From a virus, in the IMG/VR virus record IMGVR_UViG_3300025892_000077, positions 1-32,907 of that record: DNA of 32,907 nucleotides. The stretch is one strand, 5' to 3'. The stretch's first letter is position 1. Each line of letters begins with the position of its first letter. The notes under the pieces were generated by a model. The model did no database searches. It was not told where the DNA came from and was given only the letters and a program-made list of their open reading frames with translations. This document shows positions 329 to 32,907 of this stretch, piece after piece. Position numbers and translations under genes: made by a program.

Positions 329-423
329 CTTCTTTTTAGTTCCTCCATTCTACGCTGTGCTGCTTCTGCTTTTTGTTTCTCTTTTACAAAGCTGCAAATA
401 TTTAAAAACTCTATCACGTTCAT
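325..423 (-). CDS. 32-residue coupled ORF after the putative tail chaperone; possible -1 frameshift extension
   Basis: This ORF encodes 32 aa, is rich in Lys/Glu/Gln/Arg and is predicted helical (ending EAAQRRMEELKRR). Its ATG overlaps the stop of the 226-aa gene as ATGA, and its own stop overlaps the next ATG as ATGA, so it is tightly coupled on both sides. It lies in the -1 frame of the upstream gene, and that frame stays open back to base 624. A run of six A precedes the upstream stop (428-423). A -1 slip there would add these residues to the 226-aa protein, recalling lambda G/G-T. The heptamer G-AAA-AAA is not a canonical slippery site, so re-initiation is equally possible. Confidence 0.55.
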   Translation of the reverse strand: MNVIEFLNICSFVKEKQKAEAAQRRMEELKRR

Positions 424-1100
424 TTTTTCGTAATATGGTCTTTTTGTAAAGTCTCCATTGCAGAGGTTATCGAGGGTGGCAATCCAACCCCATCTTTCTC
501 CAAATCCTTCGCTACCTCCAAAATCGCTTCCCTGCTCTCCTCCGTCATGCTCTCTAGTTTCGTGTTCAAAAAGTCCTGAGTAGTTTGACGTAAGTTCGCT
601 GACAGCAGACAAAAAAAAACACAAATCGGGAAAGCATCTTCTATCGACATTGTGTTACGTATGTCATCTGCTAGGTTACGAAAGTAACTAGGTTCTATTG
701 CCATTACCTTATTATTCTTGTCTACTGGAAAGATAACACTAGCTAGAATGTCAGGCATCTGCTCAATATGTACGTTAGGGTTATCTGCAAACCCTTTTAA
801 ATAAGTTGTGAAGCTCATGTATTGCCCTGCTTCCAAATCGTTAATATGGTTAACTATTCCGTACCGTTTACCGTTAATAGTGAAATACTGTTTTAGAGTT
901 CTACTAGGCTCTACTAATAAGTGGTTAAGGTCAATAGCTAACTCAGATGGTTTGCACTTTAAAACATCCTTTCTGTCATTGAAAATACACAATAGGTCTA
1001 TAGTCCTAGTAAAAGGGTTATCGTATTCTGCGCTACGAATTTTGTTTATCTGTATGTAGTCCTTAACTAAAACTTCTTTAAGGCTTTTAGGTATTCTCAT
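420..1100 (-). CDS. Structural-region protein, candidate tail-assembly chaperone (226 aa)
   Basis: This 226-aa soluble protein has no signal peptide or membrane segment. It begins MRIPKSLKEVLVKDY and ends in an acidic/helical tail (about residues 180-226). It lies 35 bp downstream of TerL. I cannot assign a family from motifs. The chaperone idea rests on three things: overall mixed alpha/beta character, the following short -1-frame ORF, and its place at the head of the tail genes. The tape measure gene is far away at 25.6-27.6 kb, which weakens the idea because lambda-type chaperones normally precede it directly. Its start codon carries the bipartite TACAACTA-N12-ACAATAGA motif, suggesting a late transcription or translation start point. 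Confidence 0.75.
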   Translation of the reverse strand: MRIPKSLKEVLVKDYIQINKIRSAEYDNPFTRTIDLLCIFNDRKDVLKCKPSELAIDLNHLLVEPSRTLKQYFTINGKRYGIVNHINDLEAGQYMSFTTYLKGFADNPNVHIEQMPDILASVIFPVDKNNKVMAIEPSYFRNLADDIRNTMSIEDAFPICVFFCLLSANLRQTTQDFLNTKLESMTEESREAILEVAKDLEKDGVGLPPSITSAMETLQKDHITKK

Positions 1101-1133
1101 AATAGTCTATTGTAAAAAATTAAATTAGTTGTA
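1098..1133 (-). promoter_or_regulatory. Bipartite start-proximal motif, copy A
   Basis: On the minus strand TACAACTA (1133-1126), 12 nt, ACAATAGA (1113-1106), 5 nt, then the ATG at 1100. Two other copies have both octamers identical and the same 12-nt spacing (22539-22573 and 24993-25027). It may be a phage promoter/leader or a translation-initiation element. Confidence 0.6.
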
Positions 1134-4501: not shown

Positions 4502-4746
4502 TAGTCTTGTTTTGCAAAGTATAAAAATATAACCATATAACTTAAATCTAGTGAAACAATAGTAAAAACTAGACCTATCCAGAAAGACAAACAATAAGCA
4601 CAGCTCACAGGCTTAAAGTCTAATGTATAAAGTATCTTACTTATCGGCTCATAAACATATTTAAACCCCTCTTTAGTTGTAAAGGTTTGTTTGAATATGC
4701 TAGTCCATCCTAGTATCGCCAGTATTGAAATTACTATTATGCTCAT
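4501..4746 (-). CDS. Small membrane protein with CxxC (81 aa, DUF1360-like pattern)
   Basis: There are two hydrophobic segments, residues 1-15 (MSIIVISILAILGWT) and about 53-77 (FWIGLVFTIVSLDLSYMVIFLYF). Between them is a short soluble loop ending in SCAYCLSFWIG. A Cys-x-x-Cys followed by a Trp-Gly transmembrane start resembles DUF1360-like membrane proteins. It is coupled upstream to the sigma-like gene by ATGA and downstream by TAATG. Role unknown; it may alter the host envelope. Confidence 0.7.
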   Translation of the reverse strand: MSIIVISILAILGWTSIFKQTFTTKEGFKYVYEPISKILYTLDFKPVSCAYCLSFWIGLVFTIVSLDLSYMVIFLYFAKQD

Positions 4747-5219
4747 TTGTTATTATTTCTTATTTTGTTGTATATACTTTCCATTCGTTCCTTTGCTGTG
4801 GTTCTATGTATCCCTGTGTGGTCTGAGAATAGTTTTATAGATAGGTTTCTTTTAACTATCTCCTCTACCCAAATACGTTCCATTTCGTCTAACTGTTTCA
4901 CTTGCTCTAAATACTCCTTGTAAACATTGTTACTAATATACGGAATATCTTTTAATTTTAAGTAGTCAAGTTCTGTAGATTCTTGTAAAACATTATCAAA
5001 ATGCAAACGGTTAAACTCGCTACCTGACAAGTGAAACATTTTATAAGCTACTACAAATATAAACCCATCTATCTTATTGAGGTTGCTAGGTAACTCATTC
5101 GTTAGAAAATATATGTTTACCTCCTGCGCTAAGTCTTTCCAGATGTCAGAATGTTTGCAAATATTCTTACAAGCAGTTTCTATTACTTGCTGTTTCTCTT
5201 TTAAAAATGCTTCGTTCAC
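4743..5219 (-). CDS. RNA polymerase sigma-factor-like protein (158 aa)
   Basis: The N-terminal part (DIWKDLAQEVNIYFL, then FVVAYKMFHLSGSEF) resembles sigma region 2 as found in small flavobacterial-phage sigma-like proteins. The C-terminal part (about 112-153: MERIWVEEIVKRNLSIKLFS, then DHTGIHRTTAKERM) is a region-4-like helix-turn-helix. The start is GTG, supported because GTGA overlaps the stop of the 39-aa ORF upstream. The family would redirect host RNA polymerase to phage promoters. The gene lies just before the terminase and structural genes, the natural place for a late activator. Region 2 is short and diverged, so it might bind polymerase without full sigma function. Confidence 0.7.
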   Translation of the reverse strand: MNEAFLKEKQQVIETACKNICKHSDIWKDLAQEVNIYFLTNELPSNLNKIDGFIFVVAYKMFHLSGSEFNRLHFDNVLQESTELDYLKLKDIPYISNNVYKEYLEQVKQLDEMERIWVEEIVKRNLSIKLFSDHTGIHRTTAKERMESIYNKIRNNNK

Positions 5220-5335
5220 GTTTGTAAATATAATACTTTTTTTAATACAATATTTTTAAGAATATATTTACTTGGTTTTTTCTTTTTAGGTGGGTTTATT
5301 TTATCGATATGGGTTAACATATTTAATTGCTTCAT
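5216..5335 (-). CDS. 39-residue basic protein, coupled on both sides
   Basis: This 39-aa protein is very basic (INPPKKKKPSKYILKNIVLK). Its ATG overlaps the nuclease stop as ATGA (5335-5332), and its TGA overlaps the GTG start of the sigma-like gene as GTGA (5219-5216). Two such overlaps at both ends of one short frame are unlikely by chance. It may serve mainly to couple translation of the sigma-like gene, or be a small regulator of it. Confidence 0.65.
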   Translation of the reverse strand: MKQLNMLTHIDKINPPKKKKPSKYILKNIVLKKVLYLQT

Positions 5336-10926: not shown

Positions 10927-10981
10927 AAAAAAACCCTTTAACAGCGTTCGAGGGTACAACTCTACTAACCGTTAAAGGGTT
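10927..10981 (-). terminator. Hairpin with T-run just upstream of the initiator gene (terminator or attenuator)
   Basis: On the minus strand AACCCTTTAAC (10981-10971) pairs perfectly with GTTAAAGGGTT (10942-10932), followed by a run of seven T (10933-10927). The loop is 28 nt. The initiator ATG follows about 10 nt later, leaving no room for another promoter, so replication genes need read-through. It may end the SSB operon or act as an attenuator. Confidence 0.8.
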
Positions 10982-10996
10982 CAATTTATTAATATA

Positions 10997-11026
10997 TTAC
11001 TGTAGACCTTTTGTACCTGCCCACAT
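10997..11026 (-). CDS. Possible 9-residue leader peptide ahead of the replication operon
   Basis: The frame ATG...TAA encodes MWAGTKGLQ. It begins 3 nt after ACAATAGA, itself 12 nt after TACAAGTT and a TATATTTG box, and ends 16 nt before the 11-bp hairpin. The context looks like a translated leader in an attenuation system. The frame is too short to be supported by coding statistics, so this is a suggestion only. Confidence 0.3.
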   Translation of the reverse strand: MWAGTKGLQ

Positions 11027-11029
11027 ATA

Positions 11030-11065
11030 TCTATTGTAATTATTTTTTTAACTTGTACAAATATA
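11030..11065 (-). promoter_or_regulatory. Promoter with -7 box TATATTTG and partial bipartite motif (copy D)
   Basis: TATATTTG (11065-11058) fits the Bacteroidetes -7 consensus TAnnTTTG. It is followed directly by TACAAGTT (11057-11050), 12 nt, and ACAATAGA (11037-11030). The second octamer and the spacing are identical to copies A-C; the first octamer matches 5 of 8. A clear -33 TTG was not found. It would drive the leader and replication genes. Confidence 0.5.
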
Positions 11066-22377: not shown

Positions 22378-22541
22378 TATTCAGAATCTTTCTTTTCCTT
22401 CTTTTTTTTCTCCACTTTGAAAACATCTAGTCCTAGTTTTTTGTATTTAGCAAACTCATTTTTATCGTTTACTATGGTAACGTGTCCGACTACTTTATGG
22501 TAGACAGAACCGCCTCTTTTATATTCATCTTTTAACTCCAT
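22377..22541 (-). CDS. 54-residue first gene of the portal operon
   Basis: MELKDEYKRGGSVYHKVVGH begins a short beta-like domain, followed by a Lys/Glu-rich tail (VEKKKKEKKDSE). The stop overlaps the next ATG as TAATG. Its start carries the bipartite TACAACTA-N12-ACAATAGA motif (copy B), supporting it as the leading gene of the operon. No family known to me. Confidence 0.65.
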   Translation of the reverse strand: MELKDEYKRGGSVYHKVVGHVTIVNDKNEFAKYKKLGLDVFKVEKKKKEKKDSE

Positions 22542-22573
22542 ATTATCTATTGTAAAAAAAATTAATAGTTGTA
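22539..22573 (-). promoter_or_regulatory. Bipartite start-proximal motif, copy B
   Basis: On the minus strand TACAACTA (22573-22566), 12 nt, ACAATAGA (22553-22546), 4 nt, ATG (22541). Octamers and spacing are identical to copies A and C. It heads the portal operon after a 300-bp gene-free stretch. Confidence 0.6.
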
Positions 22574-22841
22574 TAAAATAAATGCCTTTAATAAAAATAT
22601 TTTAATAAACCTAATTTTTAACTAATTATTTTTAGCTCTACAGCCCAATAAAAATGGGCTTTTAACGAACTATTTTTTTTAATAGTAGCATACTAGCGAA
22701 AGGCGAAAGTGTCTTAAAACGCTTTAAAATGGCTCTAAGCAATTATTGACAAAACCAAACTTTTTTGTAAGTATTTTATTTTTGAGCATAAAAAAAGGGT
22801 AACAAATTAATGCTACCCTCTCCTTAATTAGTTGTTTAAAA
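22542..22841. other. Gene-free stretch between tail-tube gene and portal operon
   Basis: This 300-bp region has no supported gene. It holds the terminator of the upstream gene (22790-22819); a tandem heptamer GCGAAAG-GCGAAAG at 22696-22709; a plus-strand hairpin AGCCCA/TGGGCT (22642-22660) followed by T; and the bipartite motif next to the portal operon. A regulatory or small-RNA role is possible. Its local base composition (GC patches) differs from neighbours. Confidence 0.6.
22790..22819 (-). terminator. Rho-independent terminator after the tail-tube-like gene
   Basis: On the minus strand AGGGTAGCA pairs with TGTTACCCT (one mismatch) around a 6-nt loop, followed by seven T (22796-22790). 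It lies 23 bp after the stop at 22842. Confidence 0.85.
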
Positions 22842-23357
22842 CTATGCTATTGTTAAACCTTCAATTACTGTAATATCAACTTCTAGCATCCGCTTTGCTT
22901 CCTTAGAGCTTATGCTATACGTGTAGCCATTATGGTCGCCCATAGCTGCGCCTGTAACTGATGTACCGCTTAATTTATCTGCTGCATGATAAGCTCCTAC
23001 TGTCCAGTATTTATCGTTCATGTCTTTTACAATTACGAATAACTGAGCTTGGTCTAAAAGTGTTAACTCCTCGTTTTCTGATGCTGTTAAATTCTTAGTG
23101 TTAAAGTCTAAAACAGAATCGTAGAAATTAGTTCCATTCTCTAAAGAACCTGTGTGAGTTTCTATTAAAGAACCGTTTTCCTTTTCTAAAGAGTAACGGT
23201 AAAAGTTAGTAGCTCCTGCTTGAGTTAATGCTGTAATTACTCCTGATGCTACTGTGTCTATTGTTATATCTCCAAAGTTAGCAATTAAAATTTCTGAGAT
23301 TCCTCCTGTGGAGTTTCTGCAGTCAATAGCTCTACCTTGTGTTAATGCACATGCCAT
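22842..23357 (-). CDS. Probable major tail (tube) protein (171 aa)
   Basis: This 171-aa beta-rich protein begins MACALTQGRAIDCRNSTGGI and contains VKDMNDKYWTVGAYHAADKL. The pattern recurs in abundant structural proteins of Bacteroidetes siphophages. It has its own strong terminator and a leader (ATAAACATTAAAAAAAA) shared with the capsid gene, as expected for a highly expressed product. There is a terminator directly upstream, so it depends on read-through or a promoter I cannot see. Tail tube is the best fit; a capsid decoration protein is the alternative. Confidence 0.7.
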   Translation of the reverse strand: MACALTQGRAIDCRNSTGGISEILIANFGDITIDTVASGVITALTQAGATNFYRYSLEKENGSLIETHTGSLENGTNFYDSVLDFNTKNLTASENEELTLLDQAQLFVIVKDMNDKYWTVGAYHAADKLSGTSVTGAAMGDHNGYTYSISSKEAKRMLEVDITVIEGLTIA

Positions 23358-24388: not shown

Positions 24389-24405
24389 TTTTTTTTAATG
24401 TTTAT
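24389..24405 (-). promoter_or_regulatory. A-rich leader of the capsid gene
   Basis: The minus-strand 17-mer ATAAACATTAAAAAAAA lies 6 nt before the ATG at 24382 and is identical to the one before the tail-tube-like gene. No Shine-Dalgarno sequence is present. Confidence 0.55.
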
Positions 24406-24995
24406 TTATTTACTGTAAAAATTGATTTCTTTTTTGGTGAAATTACACCGCTTCTTTTTTTCTTAATTGGTGCTACGCTAGATTCGTTAGCTAATTCCTC
24501 TACTGCTGAAAACATAGCTTTCTCTTTTGTATCTGCTTCTTCTTTGTATTTAGCAAATTCTGCTTTAACAGTTTCTAACTCCTCTGTAAGTTTTGCAAAT
24601 TGCTCATTGAATACAGTTTCAGTTGATTCAATAATTTTACGAATCTTTGCTTCTGTTACTGTTTCAGCTTTTGGAGTTGCTTCTGTTTCCATTGCTTCCT
24701 CCTCCTCTGCTTCTACTTCTTTAATGTCAGAAATTGCTCCCTCCATTACAGTTACTACTGTTCCGTCTGCTAGTGGATAATCTCCGTTTGGCATTGGAGC
24801 TACTTCGCCCTCTACTTCAACAGTTACTACTGCACCAACTTCTAAAGCTGGGTCGATGTTAACCATTGTTCCATCTGCTAATTCAGCAGCCATCAACTTA
24901 ACTTCGGTTACTTCTGGAGTTGCCTCTACAGCTACCTCTGTTGTTTCTTCGCCAAAAATTAAGCTCTTTACTTTGTCTAAAGTTTCTTTACTCAT
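24402..24995 (-). CDS. Internal in-frame start: scaffold protein alone (197 aa)
   Basis: ATG 24995-24993 (residue 213 of the protease gene) is preceded by copy C of the bipartite motif, at the same distance as in front of two other gene starts. The product (MSKETLDKVKSLIFGEE…) would contain the whole acidic coiled-coil scaffold without the protease, as lambda Nu3 is nested in C. Whether the internal start is used is inference. Confidence 0.55.
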   Translation of the reverse strand: MSKETLDKVKSLIFGEETTEVAVEATPEVTEVKLMAAELADGTMVNIDPALEVGAVVTVEVEGEVAPMPNGDYPLADGTVVTVMEGAISDIKEVEAEEEEAMETEATPKAETVTEAKIRKIIESTETVFNEQFAKLTEELETVKAEFAKYKEEADTKEKAMFSAVEELANESSVAPIKKKRSGVISPKKKSIFTVNK

Positions 24996-25631
24996 ATTAT
25001 CTATTGTTTGTTTGTTACTTAGTTGTACATTGTCATCTATACTTTTTTCAAAATCTTGTATAGTTTTGATTATTTTGTTTATTGTTTCCTCGTCCATTGT
25101 TACAGGTTCAAGTTGTTTAAACATACCTTCTACACTAAATCCCGAGAACTCCCCTGCCTTTACTTGCTCCCATATTTCGTCATTGTCAACTTTTGCAGAA
25201 CCCCACAAACTACCGTTAGGAACTTTCTCAAATTCTTTTGGAGCTACCTTACCTCTTTCATTGTCTATAATAAGGTTATCTAACATATAAACCCCTTCTG
25301 CTATTTGTCTAGGGTCATGCATTAAATTAAAGTTATTGTTTAAACCTAACCTACTTTGTTTTTCTCTTATCTGTTCTATTGTCTTAGCTGAGAACTTTAC
25401 AAAGAACTTTTCGCCTTGCTCTCCTATTCTAGGGATAAGTAAATCAGCAACCATAAAGTAGCCTTCTATTATTCGCTTCTCCTCGTCTTTAATGTTAAAC
25501 TTGTACTCTGTCTGCTGACTAAATGCCATCCAATTTGAGTCTATTGCAGGTTGGTCTACTAAAGCTATAGCTGTTACTCCGCTTTCATCGTCGGTGTCTA
25601 TTACCAGTTCAAATACTTCTATTTTTTCCAT
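24402..25631 (-). CDS. Prohead protease (XkdF-like) fused to scaffold (409 aa)
   Basis: The N-terminal part (about 1-180) has the XkdF/prohead-protease pattern: ALVDQPAIDSNWMAF, FNLMHDPRQIAEGVYMLDNL with the His, SLWGSAKVDND, and GEFSGFSVEGMFKQ with the candidate Ser. The C-terminal part (about 213-409) is acidic, repetitive in Glu/Val/Ala, with a coiled coil at about 325-385 and a basic end (KKKRSGVISPKKKS), typical of a capsid scaffold. An internal in-frame ATG at codon 213 with the bipartite motif may yield the scaffold alone. It precedes the capsid gene and follows the tape measure gene. Confidence 0.85.
   Translation of the reverse strand: MEKIEVFELVIDTDDESGVTAIALVDQPAIDSNWMAFSQQTEYKFNIKDEEKRIIEGYFMVADLLIPRIGEQGEKFFVKFSAKTIEQIREKQSRLGLNNNFNLMHDPRQIAEGVYMLDNLIIDNERGKVAPKEFEKVPNGSLWGSAKVDNDEIWEQVKAGEFSGFSVEGMFKQLEPVTMDEETINKIIKTIQDFEKSIDDNVQLSNKQTIDNMSKETLDKVKSLIFGEETTEVAVEATPEVTEVKLMAAELADGTMVNIDPALEVGAVVTVEVEGEVAPMPNGDYPLADGTVVTVMEGAISDIKEVEAEEEEAMETEATPKAETVTEAKIRKIIESTETVFNEQFAKLTEELETVKAEFAKYKEEADTKEKAMFSAVEELANESSVAPIKKKRSGVISPKKKSIFTVNK
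24993..25027 (-). promoter_or_regulatory. Bipartite motif inside the protease gene, copy C
   Basis: On the minus strand TACAACTA (25027-25020), 12 nt, ACAATAGA (25007-25000), 4 nt, ATG (24995). It is identical in both octamers and spacing to copies A and B even though it lies in coding DNA. It marks a probable internal start of the scaffold. Confidence 0.6.
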
Positions 25632-32569: not shown

Positions 32570-32907
32570 TTATTTAAGTCTTTTGAATGTGTCCGTTATT
32601 ACTGTTTTTAAGTCTCCTGCTGCTGCACTTGCTAAGTCCTTTTTAAGTTTGTCGAGCCTTGCCTCTGTTACTACATTGTCATAAAAGTGGTTACCCTTAG
32701 TTCCTTTCTCTTTCCAACTTCTAGCCATTGCGAATGCTTGAGAATCTTTAGAGCCTACCTTGTACTGTTTACCTGCTAAACTTGTTATAGTGCTTCCTTT
32801 AGTTTTAAACAACCCTTTGTTATTCATCCATTGTTTAGCAAAGTAAAAAGGTATTTTAGAGCTAGACATATAAGAGTAGGGAGTATTCCTTTTCTTGTCT
32901 GTTCCAC
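32570..32907 (-). CDS. HK97 gp10-like protein, 3' part (continues from base 1)
   Basis: This is the C-terminal part of the 186-aa protein that begins at 328; the right terminal repeat repeats residues 75-109. The internal ATG at 32869 (MSSSKIPFYF) is codon 88, not the real start. The downstream part (KQYKVGSKDSQAFAMARSWK, then NHFYDNVVTEARLDKLKKDL) ends with a helix as in gp10-like proteins. In this copy residue 102 is Met; in the left copy it is Ile. Confidence 0.6.
   Translation of the reverse strand, partial: GTDKKRNTPYSYMSSSKIPFYFAKQWMNNKGLFKTKGSTITSLAGKQYKVGSKDSQAFAMARSWKEKGTKGNHFYDNVVTEARLDKLKKDLASAAAGDLKTVITDTFKRLK
32803..32907. repeat. Right copy of the 105-bp terminal direct repeat
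   Basis: It is the same sequence as bases 1-105 except position 32825 (C here, T at 23). Unique genome length is therefore 32802 bp if the repeat is only an assembly overlap. Confidence 0.95.

Follow-up and report, generated by a model that had tools for sequence, protein, structure and literature searches.

A bipartite motif abutting late gene starts as a putative late promoter in a family of uncultivated phages, with a sigma-like protein as its candidate reader

Results

Motif copies in the window

The window, which is the whole stretch of viral DNA analysed (32,907 nt), has nearly identical ends (1-100 and 32808-32907), and is thus probably a complete circular sequence (or a terminally redundant one). 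GC skew gave no origin signal in the window. No host or prophage relatives of the sigma-like protein or the portal were found in 84,980 species genomes, searches of the phage collection by DNA and by sigma protein gave no relatives, and no cultured relative was found. The host of the phage family is probably a member of the Bacteroidota, because of the TAnnTTTG-type boxes described below; the window also encodes a DUF3127 single-strand binding protein, which presumably points to the same host group.

The bipartite motif TACAACTA-N12-ACAATAGA occurs in the window as three exact copies (A, B and C) and one copy with two mismatches (D), all on the coding (minus) strand (Table 1). About 1e-4 exact matches were expected and three were observed; with up to 3 mismatches allowed the window gave 8 matches, whereas 100 shuffled versions averaged 1.7 and never exceeded 5. 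Apart from the motif, no 8+8 word (spacers 5-25) reached three occurrences on the minus strand. The first base of box 1, a conserved 8-mer, lies 32 nt from the ATG.

Table 1. Positions of the motif copies and associated features in the window
Feature	Position	Strand	Details
Copy A	1106-1133	-	Box 1 TACAACTA 1126-1133; box 2 ACAATAGA 1106-1113
Copy A target	420-1100	-	ATG of 226-aa gene; box 2 to ATG, 5 nt
Copy B	22546-22573	-	Box 1 22566-22573; box 2 22546-22553
Copy B target	22539-22541	-	ATG of the small gene that opens the portal operon; gap 4 nt
Copy C	25000-25027	-	Within 409-aa protease gene (24402-25631, PF14550)
Copy C target	24993-24995	-	In-frame internal ATG of predicted 197-aa scaffold; gap 4 nt
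Copy D	11030-11057	-	TACAAGTT-N12-ACAATAGA (two mismatches); followed by a structured RNA instead of a gene
Host-type -7 box	11058-11065	-	TATATTTG (TAnnTTTG); directly upstream of copy D
Predicted small RNA (~100 nt)	10927-11026	-	5' hairpin P1, linker, terminator hairpin P2 and T-tract
Sigma-like protein gene	4743-5219	-	158 aa; candidate reader; 34%-identical homologue similar to ECF sigma factors
Host-type -7-like box	5225-5232	-	TATATTTA; 5 nt before GTG of the sigma-like gene
Intrinsic terminator-like hairpin	22791-22822	-	After gene 22842-23357, upstream of copy B

The three exact copies with a gap of 4 to 5 nt to an ATG, as an earlier note on this DNA had described them, were all recovered. 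Copy A, however, does not straddle the TerL stop as that note had it: the stop is at 1136-1138 and the motif begins 2 nt after it. The description of the downstream genes as structural is fair for B and C (and also for E, below), but gene A has no recognised function. The weaker fourth copy is present, but it precedes a terminator-ended structured RNA and does not stand directly before a gene start. The scaffold is nested in frame in the protease gene, and copy C resembles an internal promoter of its own.

Conservation among relatives

A scan of IMG/VR for the exact pattern returned 115 stretches, many of which came from a single group of relatives, where homologous starts had the motif 4-5 nt upstream; the rest look like unrelated chance matches. 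Further relatives were gathered without use of the motif, through the sigma-like, SSB and portal proteins. Fifty gene starts of the window were compared on the pooled loci, counting unique sequences and taking up to 2 mismatches as a match.

Absence of the motif from the same starts in related phages had been named beforehand as evidence against it. The motif was present at the start of the post-TerL gene A in 24/24 unique IMG/VR sequences, at the start of portal-operon gene B in 23/23 and at the internal scaffold start C in 21/21, fractions that are not wholly free of ascertainment since the pool includes motif-retrieved loci. A fifth copy (E), absent from the window, was found at the tape-measure start in 2 of 18 unique relatives. 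None of the other starts among the 50 carried the motif (two isolated matches with 3 mismatches only), and this absence is unaffected by the ascertainment. The bipartite motif is thus found at fixed spacing before several late units in the window phage and its relatives, always 4-7 nt from the ATG in the mRNA copies.

That spacing would also be expected if the motif were a translation-start or 5'-leader RNA element, bound in the mRNA by the ribosome or a phage protein and setting late translation. Initiation in flavobacteria is tuned by adenines at -3, -6, -12 and -13 (PMC6847099), and box 2 overlaps this adenine zone. Against such an element, box 1 is conserved with its first base 32 nt from the ATG, and the motif stands at no other phage gene start.

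Changes in box 2 and constraint in coding sequence

The distant relatives L232 and L234 alter box 2 together across their sites. Box 2 in L232 reads ACAATTAA at both B and C, with ACAATTAT at E; in L234, B and C both have ACAATAAA. This would fit recognition of the sites in trans. An RNA-binding protein would suit this coordinated change as well.

At site C, inside the protease gene, the codons GTA, CAA, ACA and ATA each kept one synonymous form in 24-25 of 25 sequences, unlike most codons 20-40 upstream, which vary. The first scaffold codons are also constrained.

Terminators near copies A and B

A hairpin equivalent to that at 22791-22822 lies 16-20 nt before the motif in some relatives, and a terminator T-tract lies 49-59 nt before the copy B start in 11 of 30. 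Copy A has a terminator T-tract closely upstream in 2 of 25 relatives. In some relatives the segment of about 200 nt between the terminator and copy B is cleanly missing, with the motif intact. Where copies follow terminators so closely, an element acting on translation is harder to reconcile with the arrangement than a promoter. A terminator is also found directly upstream of gene 22842-23357 in 29/30 relatives, yet no motif is present there. This implies that read-through takes place or does no harm, and it lessens the weight of the terminator argument, which was nevertheless kept.

Two features of this region stand apart from the motif. The terminator between the capsid gene and 22842-23357 perhaps sets the product ratio by read-through. 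The conserved non-coding sequence at 22574-22790 (about 200 nt, from terminator to copy B) is cleanly present or absent among relatives, and may be another RNA or a mobile segment.

Copy D and the small RNA

Copy D precedes a predicted RNA whose P1 loop GGTACAA (11011-11017) is complementary to the P2 loop TTGTACC (10953-10959). The 5' hairpin and the terminator hairpin are shared by 17 aligned variants, and the z-scores of the six variants folded with shuffles were -3.4 to -5.6. The loops of this predicted RNA covary as kissing loops: the observed complementarity was reached in 0 of 10,000 re-pairings of 11 distinct loop pairs. The RNA matched no Rfam family at gathering score.

Among loci retrieved with SSB at 58% identity or above, 13/15 have D; in the other two (L164 and L165) the same slot downstream of SSB is taken by a different RNA, which follows a TATATTTG box and also has two hairpins with kissing loops. 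The genes flanking D differ among relatives, which suggests an RNA gene of its own. In L170, L171, L172 and L143 about 200 nt of inserted sequence lie between SSB and the putative D promoter, and the D module is undisturbed.

In several relatives copy D is followed by no ATG, or by an immediate stop after the start, so that a start codon is not found downstream of every copy. A translation element would hardly be expected at the head of a non-coding RNA. The start predicted about 5 nt past box 2 lies a few nt at most from the beginning of the 5' hairpin of the D RNA. The host-type box directly upstream of copy D would form with it a tandem arrangement with an early promoter, and could drive the D RNA alone.

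The motif might also be no core promoter but an operator to which a phage repressor or activator binds. Copy D follows closely on a host-type -7 box, where a bound repressor could block it, and the two similar ACAA elements, 19 bp apart, resemble a direct-repeat site. No host-type -7 box was found in the 60 nt upstream of the A, B, C and E starts, however, and the copies that closely follow terminators leave little room for another promoter, which makes an operator a very improbable account of the motif.

Predicted start sites

The sigma-A box of Flavobacterium psychrophilum is TAnnTTTG at -12 to -5 (PMC9723704). The sigma-like gene has a box of this type 5 nt before its start, and TATATTT(G/A) was found 4-5 nt before that start among the upstream sequences listed, which came from 37 unique relatives, so the sigma-like mRNA should begin at about the start codon. 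The spacing of box 2 to the ATG is nearly the same as that of the -7 box; the late mRNAs are thus predicted to be leaderless or nearly so, with their start at or next to the start codon. Box 2 (ACAATAGA) does not itself fit TAnnTTTG, and no TAnnTTTG was found in the 60 nt upstream of the A, B, C or E starts. Leaderless mRNAs account for 5.5% in F. psychrophilum (PMC9723704).

The sigma-like protein

The sigma-like gene sits between the replication and packaging genes. Its product matched no Pfam, PHROG or sigma NCBIfam model, and a sequence search of the PDB gave one unrelated weak match. Its homologue in L160 (34% identity) has a weak match to sigma-70 region 2, and matched TIGR02937 (sigma70-ECF) with 3.4e-5, below the curated cut-off. 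AlphaFold models of the protein and its homologue were of low confidence and had no significant PDB match with Foldseek; ECF sigmas were among the top of the non-significant list. An alignment-based search for remoter sigma homologues gave the same 47 loci again.

Gene A, with the motif always at its start, is present in all 20 sigma loci that extend far enough downstream, and the sigma gene in 19 of the 20 gene A loci that extend 4.8 kb upstream; both occur within one related group, so this co-occurrence is not independent. L160 has a possible site of its own (a single match, with 3 mismatches, 20 nt from the ATG).

Discussion

The reading favoured here is that the motif is the late promoter of this phage family, with the sigma-like protein as candidate reader and transcription starting at or near start codons (probability about 0.7). 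As a core promoter of late transcription units, the motif would use TACAASTW as an upstream (-35-like) element and ACAATAGA as a -10-like element, and transcription would begin about 5 nt past box 2. This would put the start at the start codon or a few nt from it and give late mRNAs with no leader or almost none. The post-TerL, portal and scaffold units would be transcribed from copies A, B and C, and in some relatives the tape-measure unit from copy E. The kissing-loop RNA of about 100 nt that ends at the terminator would start from copy D, which forms a tandem with the host-type -7 box. Comparison among relatives supports the proposed promoter through site-specific conservation, the coordinated change in box 2, constraint in coding sequence and RNA covariation; from these we infer promoter activity, start site, timing and the identity of the sigma.

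The earlier note had left the choice between a late promoter and a translation element. The promoter is favoured mainly on three grounds: copy D heads a non-coding RNA and often has no ATG, a terminator precedes some of the copies, and box 2 in distant relatives changes in step at the different sites. An element acting on late translation is accordingly improbable.

The promoter would most likely be read by the ECF-like sigma that the phage itself encodes and would express early, from a host-type promoter. The protein is the best candidate because its 34%-identical homologue resembles ECF sigmas, and its role as reader is plausible. The same promoter might instead be read by a host alternative sigma, or by host polymerase with a phage activator. 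That the window protein matches no family directly, and that sigma and motif were seen linked in one related group only, would agree with another reader; but the likeness of the homologue to ECF sigmas, the position of the sigma gene between replication and packaging genes and its host-type promoter suit an early-to-late switch, and a reader other than this protein seems unlikely.

The closest validated analogue is Salmonella phage 7-11, in which the sigma SaPh711_gp47 reads bipartite late promoters GTAAtg-(16)-aCTA (PMC8948821). Both have a bipartite late promoter at several late clusters and a phage sigma with host core polymerase, shown for 7-11 and proposed for the present phages. They differ in sequences and host group, and in the window the element directly adjoins start codons and stands at the head of a structured RNA as well. 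In phiEco32, phi32_gp36 reads a single element, tAATGTAtA, at middle and late promoters (PMC8948821). It has a phage sigma, motif-defined later promoters and a start 6-8 bp downstream of the element, much as proposed for the present phages; unlike the window motif, that of phiEco32 is a single element with no -35 box.

Flavobacterial sigma-A promoters (PMC9723704) are alike in that box 2 stands about as far from its predicted start as their -7 box does, and boxes of the TATATTTG/A type precede the sigma-like gene and the D RNA; they are unlike the present motif in that ACAATAGA does not match TAnnTTTG. Phage AR9 has tandem early and late promoters, but it has its own multisubunit polymerases, a late consensus AACA-(6N)-TA/G and leaders of at least 26 nt (PMC5312081). 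Novel in the present phages are the sequence of the motif, its probable Bacteroidota setting, its fusion with start codons and the fact that a structured RNA shares it.

It is possible, at somewhat less than even odds, that one late promoter fused to start codons gives both leaderless structural mRNAs and an undescribed family of kissing-loop small RNAs in the replication region. The analysis predicts an early-to-late switch for widespread uncultivated phages of probable Bacteroidota, down to the factor, the sites and the start nucleotides, and with it a dedicated internal promoter for the scaffold nested in the protease gene. The promoter also exposes a structured RNA that had not been described. 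If the late genes are leaderless, this would be a notable use of such mRNAs, since they are a minority in flavobacteria.
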